NCBI GenBank assembly: GCA_022767075.1
Contig: JALEPP010000085.1
Location: 1-33,709, forward strand
Reading direction: 5' to 3'
DNA from: Agathobacter sp.
Lineage (GTDB): Bacteria > Bacillota > Clostridia > Lachnospirales > Lachnospiraceae
DNA length: 33,709 nt
The position numbers were made by a program, and so were the translations under genes. Shown here piece by piece: positions 13,395 through 18,461 of the stretch. The stretch's first letter is position 1; every line of letters starts with the position of its first letter. The notes under the pieces are model-generated. The model was not told where the DNA came from, did no database searches, and saw only the letters and a program-made list of their open reading frames with translations.

Positions 13395-13423
13395 ATCATA
13401 CAGTTTTTCCACAATATTGTCTA
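13395..13423 (-). promoter_or_regulatory. Promoter of pflA
   Basis: On the minus strand TAGACA (13418-13423), 17 nt, TATGAT (13395-13400), each 5 of 6 to consensus. It lies just outside the left end of element E1 and 31 nt before the pflA start. Confidence 0.72.
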
Positions 13424-13429
13424 ATCATT

Positions 13430-13471
13430 CTTATCGGGGACGTTCCTTTTCTTATCGGGGACGTTCCTTTT
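13430..13471. repeat. Perfect 21-bp tandem duplication at the left end of E1
   Basis: CTTATCGGGGACGTTCC plus TTTT occurs twice in immediate succession. The right end of E1 carries a single copy. This is a terminal duplication from slippage or from insertion at an existing end. Confidence 0.9.
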
Positions 13472-13800
13472 TCCACGGCCATCGCCCTTTGGCCTTAGGA
13501 GCGCCCTTTGGCTTGACCTCCTGTCGGAACCGCATCCCGGCGAGGGAGCTTTTTTGTCTTTTCCCCCCAGCCCAGAGAACGGCCATCCAAGCGCTTCCGT
13601 TGGGGGATGGAGGTGGAAGTTTTTTTGCCAGTTATTCGGTTGCAAGGATTTTCGTGATATGATTTTGCCTCTTTCGATAATTCGAGTTCGGCAAAGTTGG
13701 GACAATTTCACAGGAGAATTCGTGGATGGGGAGAATTCCTTAAAGTAGCTTTGTTATTTTTCTTAGGCGCGTCTCCAAGGAAAATCGTGCACGCGGTTCG

Positions 13801-13885
13801 GTTTGCGGCTCGAAGAACGACATAACCGAGGTCCTAGTCGTCCGGGGGACGACTGTTTAGGACGGACCGGAGCAGAGCGGAGACC
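13801..13885 (+). ncRNA. Conserved structured core of E1
   Basis: 85 nt, nearly identical to 16937-17019 in E2 (reverse strand) apart from a 1-nt indel and a few changes near the end. It contains a nested hairpin: outer stem GTCCTA (13831-13836)/TAGGAC (13858-13863), inner stem GTCGTCC/GGACGAC with loop GGG, a 3'-side bulge TGTT, then the tail GACCGGAGCAGAGCGGAG (13865-13882). Upstream lies GTTTGCGGCTCGAAGAACGA. Whether it acts as RNA or as single-stranded DNA is not known; type ncRNA is provisional. Confidence 0.55.
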
Positions 13886-14120
13886 GTGCACAATAAAATC
13901 TCCTTGGAGCGCGCCTTAGAAAAATTCAAAGGTACGTCCTGGAATTCATCCCCACCACGGATTTTCCTGTAAAATTGTTCAAACCTTGCCGTACACGAAA
14001 ATTGAGGCAAAATCATACCACTGAAAATTCCTAAACAACCTCATAAAAGCAAAAAACTTCCACCTCCATCCTCCCAACGGAAGCGCTTGGATGGCCGTTC
14101 TCTGGGCTGGGGGAGAAGAC

Positions 14121-14161
14121 AAAAAAGACCCCTCGCCGGAGAATAACTCCGACAAGAGGTC
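14121..14161 (-). terminator. Intrinsic terminator of pflB, inside E1's right arm
   Basis: On the minus strand a 15-bp stem including G-U pairs (GACCTCTTGTCGGAG/CTCCGGCGAGGGGTC) with loop TTATT, followed by TTTTTTG. It is about 60 nt past the pflB stop and should end the pflB transcript. A degenerate mirror copy in the left arm (about 13517-13556) faces the other way. Confidence 0.85.
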
Positions 14162-14221
14162 AAGCCAAAGGGCGCTCCTAAGGCCAAAGGGCGATGGCCG
14201 TGGAAAAAGGAACGTCCCCGA

Positions 14222-16474
14222 TTAAAGAGATTCGTGGCAGGTTCTTGAAATAACGTCAAGCTGCTGTTCTCTTGTGAGGTCGATGAATTTAACTGCATAT
14301 CCGGATACACGGATTGTGAAGTTTGCGTACTCCTCTTTCTCCGGATGCTCCATTGCATCGATCAGTTTCTCTTTTCCGAATACATTGACGTTGAGGTGGT
14401 GTGCACCCTGATCAAAGTATCCGTCCAATGCGCTCTCTAAGTTCTCGATGCGCTCTTCTTCTGTATTTCCAAGTGCTCCAGGGTTGATGGTCTGGGTGTT
14501 GGAAATTCCATCTAATGCTTCTTCGTATGGAAGCTTTGCTACAGAGTTCAAGGAAGCCAAAAGTCCATTCTGCTCTGCACCGTATGCTGGGTTTGCACCA
14601 GGAGCTAAAGGTGCTCCGGCTTTACGTCCATCCGGTGTAGAACCGGTTGCCTTACCGTATACCACGTTTGAGGTGATGGTAAGAATCGATGTGGTTGGCT
14701 CAGAATCGCGGTAAGTATGGCAGCTTCTAATTTTCTTCATGAAGGTGCGGAGTAACCATACTGCGATTTCATCTGCACGCTCATCATCGTTTCCGTATTT
14801 TGGGAAATCTCCTGTGGTCTCGTAATCAACTACGATTCCATTCTCATCACGGATGGTTTTTACCTTTGCGTATTTGATTGCAGAAAGAGAATCTACTACA
14901 TGTGAGAATCCTGCAATACCGGTAGCGAAGGTACGGCGTACATCGGTATCAATTAAAGCCATCTGAGTAGCTTCATAGTAATACTTGTCATGCATGTAGT
15001 GAATCATGTTCAAGGTCTCTACATAAGCACGGGCAAGCCATGTCATCATCTTATCAAAACGATCCATAACCTCATCGTAATCTAAGTACTCTGAAGTAAT
15101 CGGACGATACTCAGGTCCAACCTGCTCCTTTAACTTCTCATCAATACCACCATTGATTGCGTAAAGAAGACATTTTGCAAGGTTTGCACGAGCTCCGAAG
15201 AACTGAATCTCTTTACCTGTCTCTGTAGCAGATACACAACAGCATACACTGTAGTCATCGCCCCATACCGGACGCATTACATCGTCGTTCTCATACTGGA
15301 CAGAGCTGGTGTTGATTGAAATCTTTGCTGCGTATTTTTTGAAGTTCTCCGGCAAATGTGATGAATAGAGAACGGTAAGGTTTGGTTCCGGTGAAGGTCC
15401 CATGTTCTCCAATGTGTGGAGGAAACGGAAACAGGTCTTAGTAACCTCACTTCTTCCATCCATACCGATACCAGCCACATCAACGGTAGCCCATACCGGG
15501 TCTCCTGAGAATAACTGATTGTATGACTCGATACGAGCAAATTTTACCATACGGAATTTCAATGTCATATGGTCGATAAGCTCCTGAGCCTCAGCCTCTG
15601 TAAGGATACCCTTCTTTAGGTCTCTCTCAATATAAATATCAAGGAAGGTTGAAACACGTCCTACTGACATTGCAGCACCGTTCTGGGTTTTGATTGCTGC
15701 AAGGTATCCGAAGTAAAGCCACTGGCATGCTTCTTTTGCATCCTTTGCAGGCTCTGAAATATCAAAGCCGTATACAGCAGCCATTTCCTTCATACCCTTT
15801 AAGGCACGAATCTGCTCTGCAAGCTCCTCACGGATACGGTAGTCCTTACTTCTCATGGCAAGTCTTGCACTTGCATCAAAGTCTTTTTCCTTCTCTTCAA
15901 TCAGGTAGTCAATACCGTAAAGTGCCACACGACGGTAGTCACCAACGATACGTCCTCTTCCGTAAGTATCCGGAAGTCCTGTTAAAATATGGCTGTGACG
16001 CATACGCTTCATCTCCGGAGTGTATACATCGAATACTGCCTGGTTATGTGTTTTATGGTAAACGGTAAAAATCTCATGAAGCTTTGGACTTGGCTCGTAT
16101 CCATACATTCTGCATGACTGCTCTGCCATCTTGATTCCACCGTAAGGCATAAATGCTCTCTTTAATGGTTTATCAGTCTGAAGGCCGACTACCTTCTCTA
16201 ACTCCTTCATTTCAGGATCGATATATCCCGGGCCGTATGCAGTAAGTGAAGACACTACCTCTGTCTCCATATCCAAAACACCGCCTTTTGCACGCTCTTC
16301 CTTCTGGAGCTCCTGCACCTTTCCCCACAACTTATTGGTAGCTTCTGTAGGACCTGCTAAGAACGATTCATCTCCCTCGTATGGGGTATAGTTGTTCTGA
16401 ATGAAATCACGAACGTCAATTCCTTCTTTCCAAAGTCTTCCCTCGAAGCCTTCCCACTGTTTAAAATCCTTCAT
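14222..16474 (-). CDS. pflB: Formate C-acetyltransferase (pyruvate formate-lyase)
   Basis: 750 residues, full length for PFL. It converts pyruvate plus CoA to acetyl-CoA plus formate in anaerobic fermentation. The active-site cysteines lie in [13 protein letters not shown] (Cys411-413, corresponding to the Cys418/419 pair of E. coli), and the glycyl-radical site is RVSGYAVKF (Gly725) near the C-terminus. The start at 16474 has AAAGGAT upstream. A promoter lies at 16525-16552. The stop codon TAA directly abuts element E1. It needs the activating enzyme encoded downstream (pflA), which here has a separate promoter. Confidence 0.98.
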
Positions 16475-16524
16475 AAATTATCCTTTCTAAAAAAGCCAAC
16501 TTACTATTTCTCTTCGACTCCTAT

Positions 16525-16552
16525 ATCTTACAAAAATCTGCCGAAAATTCAA
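16525..16552 (-). promoter_or_regulatory. Promoter of pflB
   Basis: On the minus strand TTGAAT (16547-16552), 16 nt, TAAGAT (16525-16530), about 50 nt before the pflB start. The 16553-16630 stretch upstream is AT-rich without other clear motifs, followed by element E2. Confidence 0.65.
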
Positions 16553-16936
16553 TAGATTTCGCGCATCTTTTCTCTTTTCCCTTTATTGCATTTAAAACTC
16601 TCATTTTCTCTATTTTTTTTGTCCATTTTACCTAAAATCTATACACGGTGAGACTCCTTTTCTCCAATTTCTGGATTTTTCCTTTTCCACCTTCTCCCAG
16701 ATTATGTATCACTTTCCACCCGGGGTGGCGCTCTCCCCATCCAAAACAGTAGGGGGCATCCATAACGGCACTGTACTTTTACAAGGTTACTTAGTATTTT
16801 GGGAAGGCGCCCTCACACTTTATTTTTCTGTACGCCAAGGTTTGAACAAGGGGCAAAAATTGTCTACCAAAATGCGTGCTAGCCGCTCCTCGTCTGCTAC
16901 TCTAGGGAGCCGCCTTCACGAATTTTATTACGGGGG

Positions 16937-17019
16937 GTCTCCACTCCGCTCCGGTCCGTCCTAAACAGTCGTCCCCCGGACGACTAGGACCTCGGTTTGT
17001 CGTTCTTCGAGCCGCAAAC
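16937..17019 (-). ncRNA. Conserved structured core of E2
   Basis: Reverse complement of E1's core, with the nested hairpin at 16958-16990 identical to E1's. The tail reads GACCGGAGCGGAGTGGAG. Provisional type, as for E1. Confidence 0.55.
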
Positions 17020-17285
17020 AGACCCGCCCCCGTTCTATCGTTCAGGACGGCTCCAAGAGTAGCAACGACTCGTCGCTGAATCGCTGCGCATTTTTGGCAG
17101 ACAACTTTTTGTCCCTTGTCCCAACTTTGGCGAACTGAAATCATCGAAAAAGTGTGAGGGGGGCCTTCCCAAAAATACTTGTGGCCTTGTAACTGGTACA
17201 GTGCCCTTATGGATGCCCCCTACTGCTTTGGATGGGGAGAGCGCCACCCCGGGCGGAAAGCGTGCGAAAAACCGGGGAGAAGGTA

Positions 17286-17343
17286 TAAAAAGGAAAAATC
17301 CCTGCACCGGGAGAAAAGGAGTCTCACCGTGTACAGGGATTTT
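17286..17343 (-). terminator. Intrinsic terminator of rpoD, formed by the right end of E2
   Basis: On the minus strand AAAATCCCTG pairs with CAGGGATTTT (17334-17343 with 17295-17304). An inner, partly paired stem CACGGTGAG/CTCCCGGTG lies between them, and TTTCCTTTTT follows. It is 9 nt past the rpoD stop. A degenerate mirror copy sits at the left end of E2 facing plus-strand transcription. Confidence 0.8.
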
Positions 17344-17351
17344 AGGGGAAT

Positions 17352-18461
17352 CTAGCCCACGAAACCAACCAGTTTCTTGGAGCGAGATGGTGCTCTTAAT
17401 TTTTTGAGGGATTTTGCTTCGATCTGGCGAATACGCTCTCTGGTTACGCCCATGGTCTGTCCTACTTCCTCTAAGGTGTGAGGAATTCCGTCTGCAAGTC
17501 CAAATCGCATGGTAATGACATACTGCTCCCGCTCGGTAAGGGTGGCAAGGGCTTCCTTTAGGCATTCGTTACGCACGGTTTCCATAGCGTGCTGCTCCGG
17601 TGCCTTGGTGTTGAAGTCCTCGATGAAATCACCAATGGAGGTGTTCTCCTCTTCACCTACCGGGGTATCGAGAGATACGGTATCTCCGGTGTATTTTAAA
17701 GCCTCCCTTACTTTTTCAACTTCAAGGGATGTTGCCTCAGCGATTTCTTCCTCGTTTGGCTCTCTTCCGGTCTCCTGAAGAAGTGCTTTCTGGGTGCGGA
17801 CTACCTTGTTGATTACCTCAACCATGTGTACAGGAATACGAATGGTCTTTGCCTGATCGGCAATGGCTCTGGTGATGGACTGGCGAATCCACCAGGTTGC
17901 ATAGGTGGAGAATTTGAAGCCCTTCTCATACTCGTACTTGTCTACTGCCTTCATAAGACCGATATTTCCCTCCTGAATAAGATCCAGAAAGGTAAGGCCT
18001 CGTCCGATGTATTTCTTTGCCACACTGACAACAAGTCTTAGGTTGCAATTGATAAATAATTCTTTTGCGGCAGCATCGCCATCCTGGATTTTCTTAGCAA
18101 GACTCTGCTCTTCTTCCGGGGAAAGGAGCTGATAGCGTCCGATCTCTTTTAAGTATGCACGAACCGGATCATCTACGTTTAATGCTACGTCCTGGATGGT
18201 TGCGGCCATATCTTCTGACATGTCGATTTCCACGTCCTCAAAGTTATCCTCTGGCTTCTCAAGAAGCTGCTCTTCCTTTTTCAATACAATGATGTCATTT
18301 CCTTCAATGTACTCAACAATCGCACCATACTGTTCTCTGCTTAAAGAAAAGCTTTTCAGCTTTTTCTGAATGATTTCCTCTTCCAAAACATTATTGTTTT
18401 TCTTGGCGTCTTCAATAATCTTTCCGACGATTTCCATCATTTGTTTCTTGTTATCTTCCAA
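17352..18461 (-). CDS. rpoD: RNA polymerase primary sigma factor
   Basis: Group 1 sigma-70. Region 1.1 is about 1-75 and region 1.2 includes [21 protein letters not shown]. Region 2 has the [20 protein letters not shown] and [19 protein letters not shown] blocks. Region 3 follows, and region 4.2 carries the -35-binding helix [20 protein letters not shown] and ends SRSKKL. I place the start at the TTG at 18461 because AAAGG lies 11 nt upstream and the longer ORF's TTG has no ribosome site. This gives 369 residues. The usual dnaG partner is absent upstream, and the gene has its own promoter at 18522-18551. Confidence 0.95.

Follow-up and report, generated by a model that had tools for sequence, protein, structure and literature searches.

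E1 (13430-14223) and E2 (16631-17347), two palindromes flanked by pflA, pflB and rpoD in the window (the whole 33,709-nucleotide stretch of Agathobacter sp. DNA analysed here), are near full-length hairpins built on a common core that bears asymmetric blocks. On balance, we believe that both are copies of a non-autonomous foldback element whose hairpin seeds template switching during replication, so that one flank is mirrored on the opposite side up to the point where coding sequence halts the process. In this reading, the heritable part of the element is the core.

Structure of E1 and E2

The original prediction described both elements as nearly full-length inverted repeats, and this is borne out by long arm stretches matching at 78-99% and by folding. 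In E1, 75 nt are 99% complementary (13454-13528 with 14148-14222) and a further stretch is 78% complementary (13551-13628 with 14049-14126); in E2, the corresponding values are 95% (16712-16776 with 17196-17260) and 79% (16639-16686 with 17289-17336). Folded as a single RNA strand, E1 reaches -554.7 kcal/mol, whereas its shuffles average -261.8 (z -55, 20 shuffles), and E2 reaches -456.1 kcal/mol with a shuffle average of -230.8 (z -29, 20 shuffles). Eleven of the 12 inverted pairs in the window (minimum length 22, distance limit 900) fall inside E1 or E2. The two cores match over 76 nt at 91% and 30 nt at 93%, and their asymmetric blocks over 37 nt at 86% and 28 nt at 89%; the predicted shared core and pair of asymmetric inner blocks are thus real, the quoted motifs occur as written, and neither element holds a transposase, again as anticipated. 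The features are listed below, with arm and core ends drawn by a boundary definition that gave no boundary for many other copies.

13428..13469, + strand: pair of tandem 21-bp units at the E1 left end
13454..13628, + strand: E1 left outer arm, 175 nt, its outermost part REP-like (GGGGACGTTCC)
13629..14048, + strand: E1 core, 420 nt including the nested hairpin
13686..13705, + strand: E1 5' asymmetric block, GTTCGGCAAAGTTGGGACAA
13802..13822, + strand: E1 apical 21-nt motif; 25 of the 27 core copies carry it exactly
13830..13884, + strand: E1 nested hairpin in the core loop, ends approximate; four further copies have one
13975..13994, + strand: E1 3' asymmetric block; the other strand reads GTACGGCAAGGTTTGAACAA
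14049..14222, + strand: E1 right outer arm, 174 nt, terminating at the pflB stop codon
14127..14161, - strand: terminator-like hairpin and T-run past pflB, inside the E1 arm (by eye); the left-arm version is less perfect
16631..16776, - strand: E2 outer arm on the pflB side, 146 nt
16777..17195, - strand: E2 core, 419 nt including the nested hairpin, in the orientation opposite to E1
16936..16991, - strand: E2 nested hairpin in the core, ends approximate
16998..17018, - strand: E2 apical 21-nt motif
17196..17346, - strand: E2 outer arm on the rpoD side, 151 nt, starting 5 nt past the rpoD stop codon
17298..17340, - strand: rpoD terminator-like hairpin inside the E2 arm (by eye); its mirror in the opposite arm is degenerate

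A conserved core family

The window's genome (G000) has 27 forward core sites, and diverged core copies occur in five further Lachnospiraceae genomes, including Roseburia faecis, giving six genomes in total. One of the five, G147, which is rated 100% complete, has 41 core sites. The core forms a hairpin of ~370 nt, or ~420 nt with the nested hairpin, whose asymmetric internal loops are conserved. Across a core alignment of 40 rows from five genomes (A2), 96.6% of cells are paired, two-sided changes occur in 32 of 40 helix pairs, and two-sided cells number 315 (shuffle mean 88), compared with 32 that changed on one side only. The unpaired loops AATA and TTAG are each kept in 38 of 39 rows, the last row, a reverse-strand match of L091, having been dropped for loop and mismatch counts. 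That identical unpaired loops recur in other species agrees with the earlier suggestion that the asymmetry is not mere duplication of one end. Within G000, the inner cores of 18 of the 19 arm-scored copies (see below) are 78-98% identical.

The expectation of a repeat family without a known match also held. No Rfam covariance model matched the window at the gathering threshold, or positions 13400-17400 and one arm-less copy at up to E 5; plasmid and phage records had no match to the E2 core and viral contigs none to two exact patterns, and our literature search, whose scope excluded most subscription journals, returned no description of this foldback core family. Since no more than 7-8 candidates per genome were scored in the family-level and order-level searches, absence from them carries little weight; indeed, one of five genomes not picked for known matches (G003) became positive once 150 candidates were scored. 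The family as described here leaves out three loci from unrelated organisms and a weak match in G372.

Outer arms and neighbouring genes

Arms were scored in 19 of the 27 G000 copies, leaving out L066, which has no arms, and seven copies cut by contig ends. Within-copy scores were 61.5-115.5 in 15 of the 19 (shuffled maximum 15.5), whereas cross-copy pairs scored below 20 in 141 of 171 cases and at least 30 in 10, every one of them within the E1 type. L063 (22.5) and L064a (13.0) have unlike arms, one being of the E1 type, and within-copy matches are weak in L064b and L099. Arms of the E1 type extend over 200 nt at eight further places (C1, C5, C92, C95, C119, C158 and two in C170); shared arms are therefore not rare. 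The outer arms had been called unrelated, which is correct for E1 against E2, but those of E1 recur elsewhere in the same genome. By eye, the arms of G127 and G003 look alike.

Copies lie between convergent genes far more often than between divergent ones (27 versus 6 of 62 copies, p = 0.0003; counted in G000, at 37 of the 41 G147 sites and in G003, with G002, G047 and G127 left out). For G000, G003 and G047 together, 10 of the 11 copies between convergent genes have a palindrome that reaches both stop codons, coming within 18 nt of them or overlapping them. In G147, this holds for only 6 of 17 convergent copies, and palindromes there measure 195-304 nt in 26 of 37.

A neighbour's coding end is mirrored across the core beyond chance in 4 of 26 copies (L073, L087, L095 and L105; 0-2 of 1382 null pairings). 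These four show the inverted copy of adjacent sequence that template switching would leave in an arm, with a clear source, rplQ, in one: TIGR00059 matches rplQ through its last residue, so that the rplQ end is native. In the other 22, among them E1, E2 and the five copies tested from G003, coding overlap did not exceed chance. By eye, L097 and L094 had seemed good cases, yet 180 and 353 of the 1382 null pairings scored as well, and both were rejected; L268 (0 of 1382) was left uncounted because its ORF differs from the called neighbour.

A model for palindrome growth

Based on these observations, we propose that the core would be a mobile element whose spread depends on an enzyme acting in trans. 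Its long hairpin may cause replication to switch templates, such that one flank is copied inverted onto the other, and repeated events of this kind would lengthen the palindrome and keep its arms matched. Selection would remove events that overwrite coding sequence or promoters, which could explain why arms end at gene boundaries and why the arm on the stop-codon side keeps a terminator. The loops may have kept their asymmetry because they are required by the element, presumably so that the folded strand can be recognised. Our searches found no moving enzyme, clear target duplication or strain-level empty site. That template switching makes and repairs stems is, as far as the available portions of the sources go, established (PMC8794818, PMC8604942).

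With its recognisable core, the family offers natural cases of palindrome growth and arm repair, including apparently mirrored gene ends, in which template switching could be studied at scale beyond short hairpins. In bacteria, a long palindrome would be expected to be unstable, yet G000 carries many, up to nearly 800 bp, that fill intergenic gaps, and the family illustrates a way in which near-perfect palindromes of several hundred bases may arise in a bacterial chromosome.

Alternative explanations

Could the core instead be a new structured RNA or a cis-acting mRNA element, with the long arms selected as double-stranded RNA? We consider this a credible, if less probable, reading. Loops are fixed while helices change, and the copy at C119:8850 retains the loops and apical motif despite altered stems and the absence of long arms. 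Core mismatches in the five genomes of A2 lean towards G.T (38 versus 8 cells, excluding one fixed T.G column; 20 versus 7 as distinct events, p = 0.02), a bias that an RNA would account for. However, G147 core mismatches show no such lean (8 versus 9; alignment A3, three reverse rows dropped), and neither do the outer arms, with 46 G.T versus 54 A.C in 22 copies (omitting E1, E2, L068, L073 and L080, where extension halted at the nested hairpin) and 261 versus 257 over 41 copies with core. Given that the arms have no G.U preference and mostly match only inside their own copy, the idea that the whole foldback is one selected structure is not upheld. Moreover, copies in tandem contexts lie on either strand relative to neighbouring transcription (13 along, 16 opposite), two-sided changes exceed one-sided ones about ten to one, and no Rfam family matches. 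The covariation check proposed with the original prediction did yield a very strong signal, but since copying from arm to arm in DNA can also give two-sided changes, strong arm covariation alone need not prove RNA. A linked gene was sought at C119:8850, where the next gene resembles, by eye, an ABC-transporter substrate-binding protein; this candidate was not retained.

A bolder version of template switching, which we hold to be rather unlikely, would make the core itself a palindrome-building machine: the folded strand would prime copying of the flank in its own replication cycle, each insertion could mirror a neighbouring gene's end on both sides, and the asymmetric loops would be the enzyme's recognition sites.

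It is improbable, slightly more so, that the core was inserted repeatedly into the centres of older palindromes, such as terminators or REPINs, that then became arms. Terminator-like hairpins do lie inside arms (by eye), and a core-less palindrome of two REPs exists at C29:43579-43728, but an ordinary terminator would not account for the four copies in which the coding end of a gene lies in one arm and is mirrored in the other.

We consider it very unlikely that a RAYT (REP-associated tyrosine transposase) moves the elements as oversized REPINs. While REP sequences on either side of a 264-aa RAYT-like gene on contig C118 match the E1 outer ends, most other G000 arms are unlike those of E1, and the locus of the PF01797-type gene in G127 lacks that genome's end motif. 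PF01797 matches, some of them not RAYT, occur in G000, G002, G003, G047 and G127, but there is none in G147 despite its 100% completeness rating and many core sites; this absence of a Y1 transposase rules out a RAYT as the family-wide mover. A RAYT is possible as the mover of the E1 type only.

An assembly artefact of a fragmented genome (G000 comprises 180 contigs and several copies stop at contig ends) can be practically dismissed, as E1 and E2 sit within the contig interior, away from its ends, and both R. faecis M72 and a genome assembled as one contig of 3,592,125 bp have core-bearing long hairpins as well.

Comparison with known systems

The foldback element proposed here shares arm homogenisation and multibase two-sided changes with template-switch quasipalindromes (PMC8794818, PMC8604942, PMC7202029), but these, in the portions of the sources available, are short repeats or RNA stems, whereas here arms of >100 nt surround a repeated core. 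The repetitive hairpin-forming elements of sponge mitochondria and the coding palindromes of Nematomorpha mitochondria are similar as hairpin repeats or long inverted repeats, albeit, in the parts of those papers available, in organelle genomes (PMC2800124, PMC6649704). The PATEs (palindrome-associated transposable elements) of Haloquadratum are likewise transposase-free repeats tied to palindromes but, unlike our family, carry palindromes close to their termini, lack terminal inverted repeats and have ends akin to those of IS605-type elements, as the accessible part of the source describes them (PMC3119063). REPs and REPINs with their RAYT (TnpA_REP) are also palindromic and extragenic, and E1 has REP-like ends; known REPs are, according to the available section of one source, processed as folded single strands (PMC8266576). 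The foldback family is far longer, and G147 has no RAYT.

Like MITEs, the family is non-coding and dispersed, with inverted ends. In contrast to MITEs, it is paired over its whole length with conserved asymmetric loops, no parent transposon was identified, and most G000 arms vary between copies, so that constant terminal inverted repeats do not hold for most copies there. The short G147 copies (~240 nt) share an end motif present at 58 sites (reversed control 0). A/T-rich repeats beside a few of the 12 listed two-ended G147 places hint at target duplications, and the 16 of the 58 sites viewed 250 nt inward held partial copies, mini-hairpins and unrelated sequence.

Core structure and distribution

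The two long hairpins of the original prediction are both present in the window, each far beyond chance.

13430-14223: foldback element E1
13830-13884: nested hairpin in the core loop of E1
16631-17347: foldback element E2, its core in the orientation opposite to that of E1
16936-16991: nested hairpin in the core loop of E2

E1 occupies the gap between pflB and pflA entirely and E2 most of that between rpoD and pflB (gene names by NCBIfam); the right arm of E1 extends to the pflB stop codon, and the right arm of E2 starts 5 nt past the rpoD stop codon. Read by eye, both carry a terminator-like hairpin that is intact in the stop-codon-side arm and degenerate in the mirror arm, and in the convergent copy L076 such hairpins are intact in both arms. 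The nested hairpin, about 52 nt long, was found in five copies (E1, E2 and copies on contigs C74, C121 and C35; loci L068, L073 and L080), lies on the opposite strand in the C35 copy (L080), and looks like a separate small insertion into the core loop.

In the genome to which the window belongs (G000; 180 contigs, 83.7% complete), Blast returned 93 matching pieces for E1 and 56 for E2. A covariance model built from 21 inner cores gave 36 matches there, namely 27 forward sites and nine reverse-strand matches to the same hairpins; 25 of the 27 core sites match an apical 21-nt motif exactly, and inner-core identity is 78-98% among 18 of the 19 copies whose arms were compared. One site, C119:8850 (L066:1451-1586), is a minimal inner core without long arms, its apical motif intact; downstream of it lies a gene whose product looks like an ABC-transporter substrate-binding protein.

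In an alignment of 40 cores from five genomes (G000, G002, G047, G127 and G147), 96.6% of helix cells pair, and pairing falls to 42-50% when the partner is shifted by one column. Covariation, proposed earlier as a check, is evident in these cores: 32 of 40 helix pairs show two-sided changes, which affect 315 cells versus 32 for one-sided changes. Since the loops AATA and TTAG are each kept in 38 of 39 rows, the core asymmetry originally noticed in E1 and E2 holds across genera. Core mismatches favour G.T over A.C (38 versus 8 cells, one fixed T.G column excluded; 20 versus 7 when counted as events, p = 0.02), and those in G147 show no G.T lean (8 versus 9 events). The strand selected in the core may be either RNA or DNA.

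At genus level 3 of 62 genomes had matches, at family level 3 of 397 drawn and at order level 2 of 392 drawn, one of these weak; each count includes G000, and few candidates were scored per genome. Fuller scoring of ten chosen genomes gave six positives, extending the family, as the proposed Lachnospiraceae search had sought, beyond G000: G002 (Roseburia faecis M72; 4 matches), G003 (a single contig of 3,592,125 bp; 6 matches, E 2e-7 to 4e-5), G047 (10), G127 (Lachnospiraceae MAG SUG111; 8) and G147 (41). Folding copies from other genomes likewise gave long hairpins.

In the suggested comparison with relatives lacking E1, the pflB-pflA gap is roughly 0-150 bp in about 10 of the 12 closest (estimated); this is presence or absence between species and not a strain-level empty site. 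In G008 and G039 the gap is roughly 430-550 bp (estimated) and holds a different hairpin, with no core match on the fuller scoring. That hairpin (L152 and L151, respectively) is about 250 nt long, has CTTAG on both strands and is partly deleted in G008. The same gap in G034 (L156) contains several REP-like GGGGACGTATCTT hairpin units.

Outer arms and gene ends

Own-partner arm matches are strong in 15 of 19 copies (scores 61.5-115.5; shuffled maximum 15.5), weak in L064b (23.0) and L099 (35.5), and the arms are unlike in L063 (22.5) and L064a (13.0). Across copies, 141 of 171 arm pairs score below 20, 20 score 20-30 and 10 score at least 30, all of the last among E1, L060, L063, L064a and L072. 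G000 thus holds one REP-ended group with shared arms, the remaining copies being chiefly self-matching. L063 and L064a, the first copy of its locus, are hybrids of one E1-type arm and one other, mutually unmatched. There are E1-type arm pieces longer than 200 nt at eight further places, most of them at a contig end or lacking a core. In G127 and G003 the arms look related from copy to copy by eye, and arm inheritance therefore varies by host. G.T and A.C mismatches are about equally frequent in the arms (46 and 54, respectively, in 22 copies), the pattern predicted if pairing is maintained at the level of DNA or for both strands.

Both stop codons are present in 11 convergent copies of G000, G003 and G047, and in 10 of these the palindrome overlaps them or comes within 18 nt; that of L063 ends 55-59 nt short. 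In G147 both are reached in only 6 of 17 convergent copies, by an extension method that can overshoot. Neighbours on both sides could be called, by crude ORF calls, for 62 copies (19 of them in G000, 37 in G147 and 6 in G003); of these, 27 are convergent versus 6 divergent (p = 0.0003, assuming the two kinds of gap equally frequent on a circle), and tandem copies lie 13 with and 16 against transcription.

A mirrored-position test, run on 14 copies and then on 26 with pairings between different copies as the null (n = 1382), found coding overlap beyond chance in four of the 26, whose scores were reached by 0-2 of these null pairings.

Neighbours that the palindrome runs into in the four copies
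L073: rplQ
L087: mraY-like gene
L105: clpX-like gene and glycosidase-like gene (named by eye)
L095: ECF transporter-like gene

The final 30 nt of rplQ are mirrored in L073 (24/30 identical) immediately past the opposite gene's stop codon, and because the L17 model matches rplQ through its last residue, rplQ is the source of the mirror. Coding overlap beyond chance was found in neither E1, E2 nor the five G003 copies tested. In L105 and L087, one neighbour's last codons appear to consist of the other neighbour's end in mirror image.

Proposed mechanism and mobility

A single template-switching event can make stems and repair them (PMC8794818; PMC8604942). We propose that the core, a repeated sequence that folds strongly, would trigger such events over and over, mirroring one flank onto the other, and that purifying selection would halt the mirror wherever it meets coding sequence or a promoter. 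Together these would explain why arms match only themselves, why they lack wobble bias, why they end at stop codons and why coding ends are mirrored. Template switching alone leaves the asymmetry of the core loops unexplained, which needs selection on the core. We lean slightly towards this account as a whole, a little less so following the 26-copy test.

Spread of the core itself we infer to be movement in trans via some enzyme, perhaps differing among hosts. The E1-type end in G000 is similar to REPs that lie on either side of a RAYT-like gene (REP-associated tyrosine transposase; 264 aa, L083 on C118, about 34090-34880), which NCBIfam REP_Tyr_transpos matches below its cut-off. A search of G147 for PF01797 (Y1 transposase) gave no match. 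The copies of about 240 nt in G147 have a common end, CCCTTTTCGGATTTGTGTTCC, present at 58 sites (reversed control 0); among the places inspected were a two-ended element of 80 nt, partial copies and mini-hairpins. Three loci there (L278, L290 and L296) are solo mini-hairpins consisting only of the element's end sequence.
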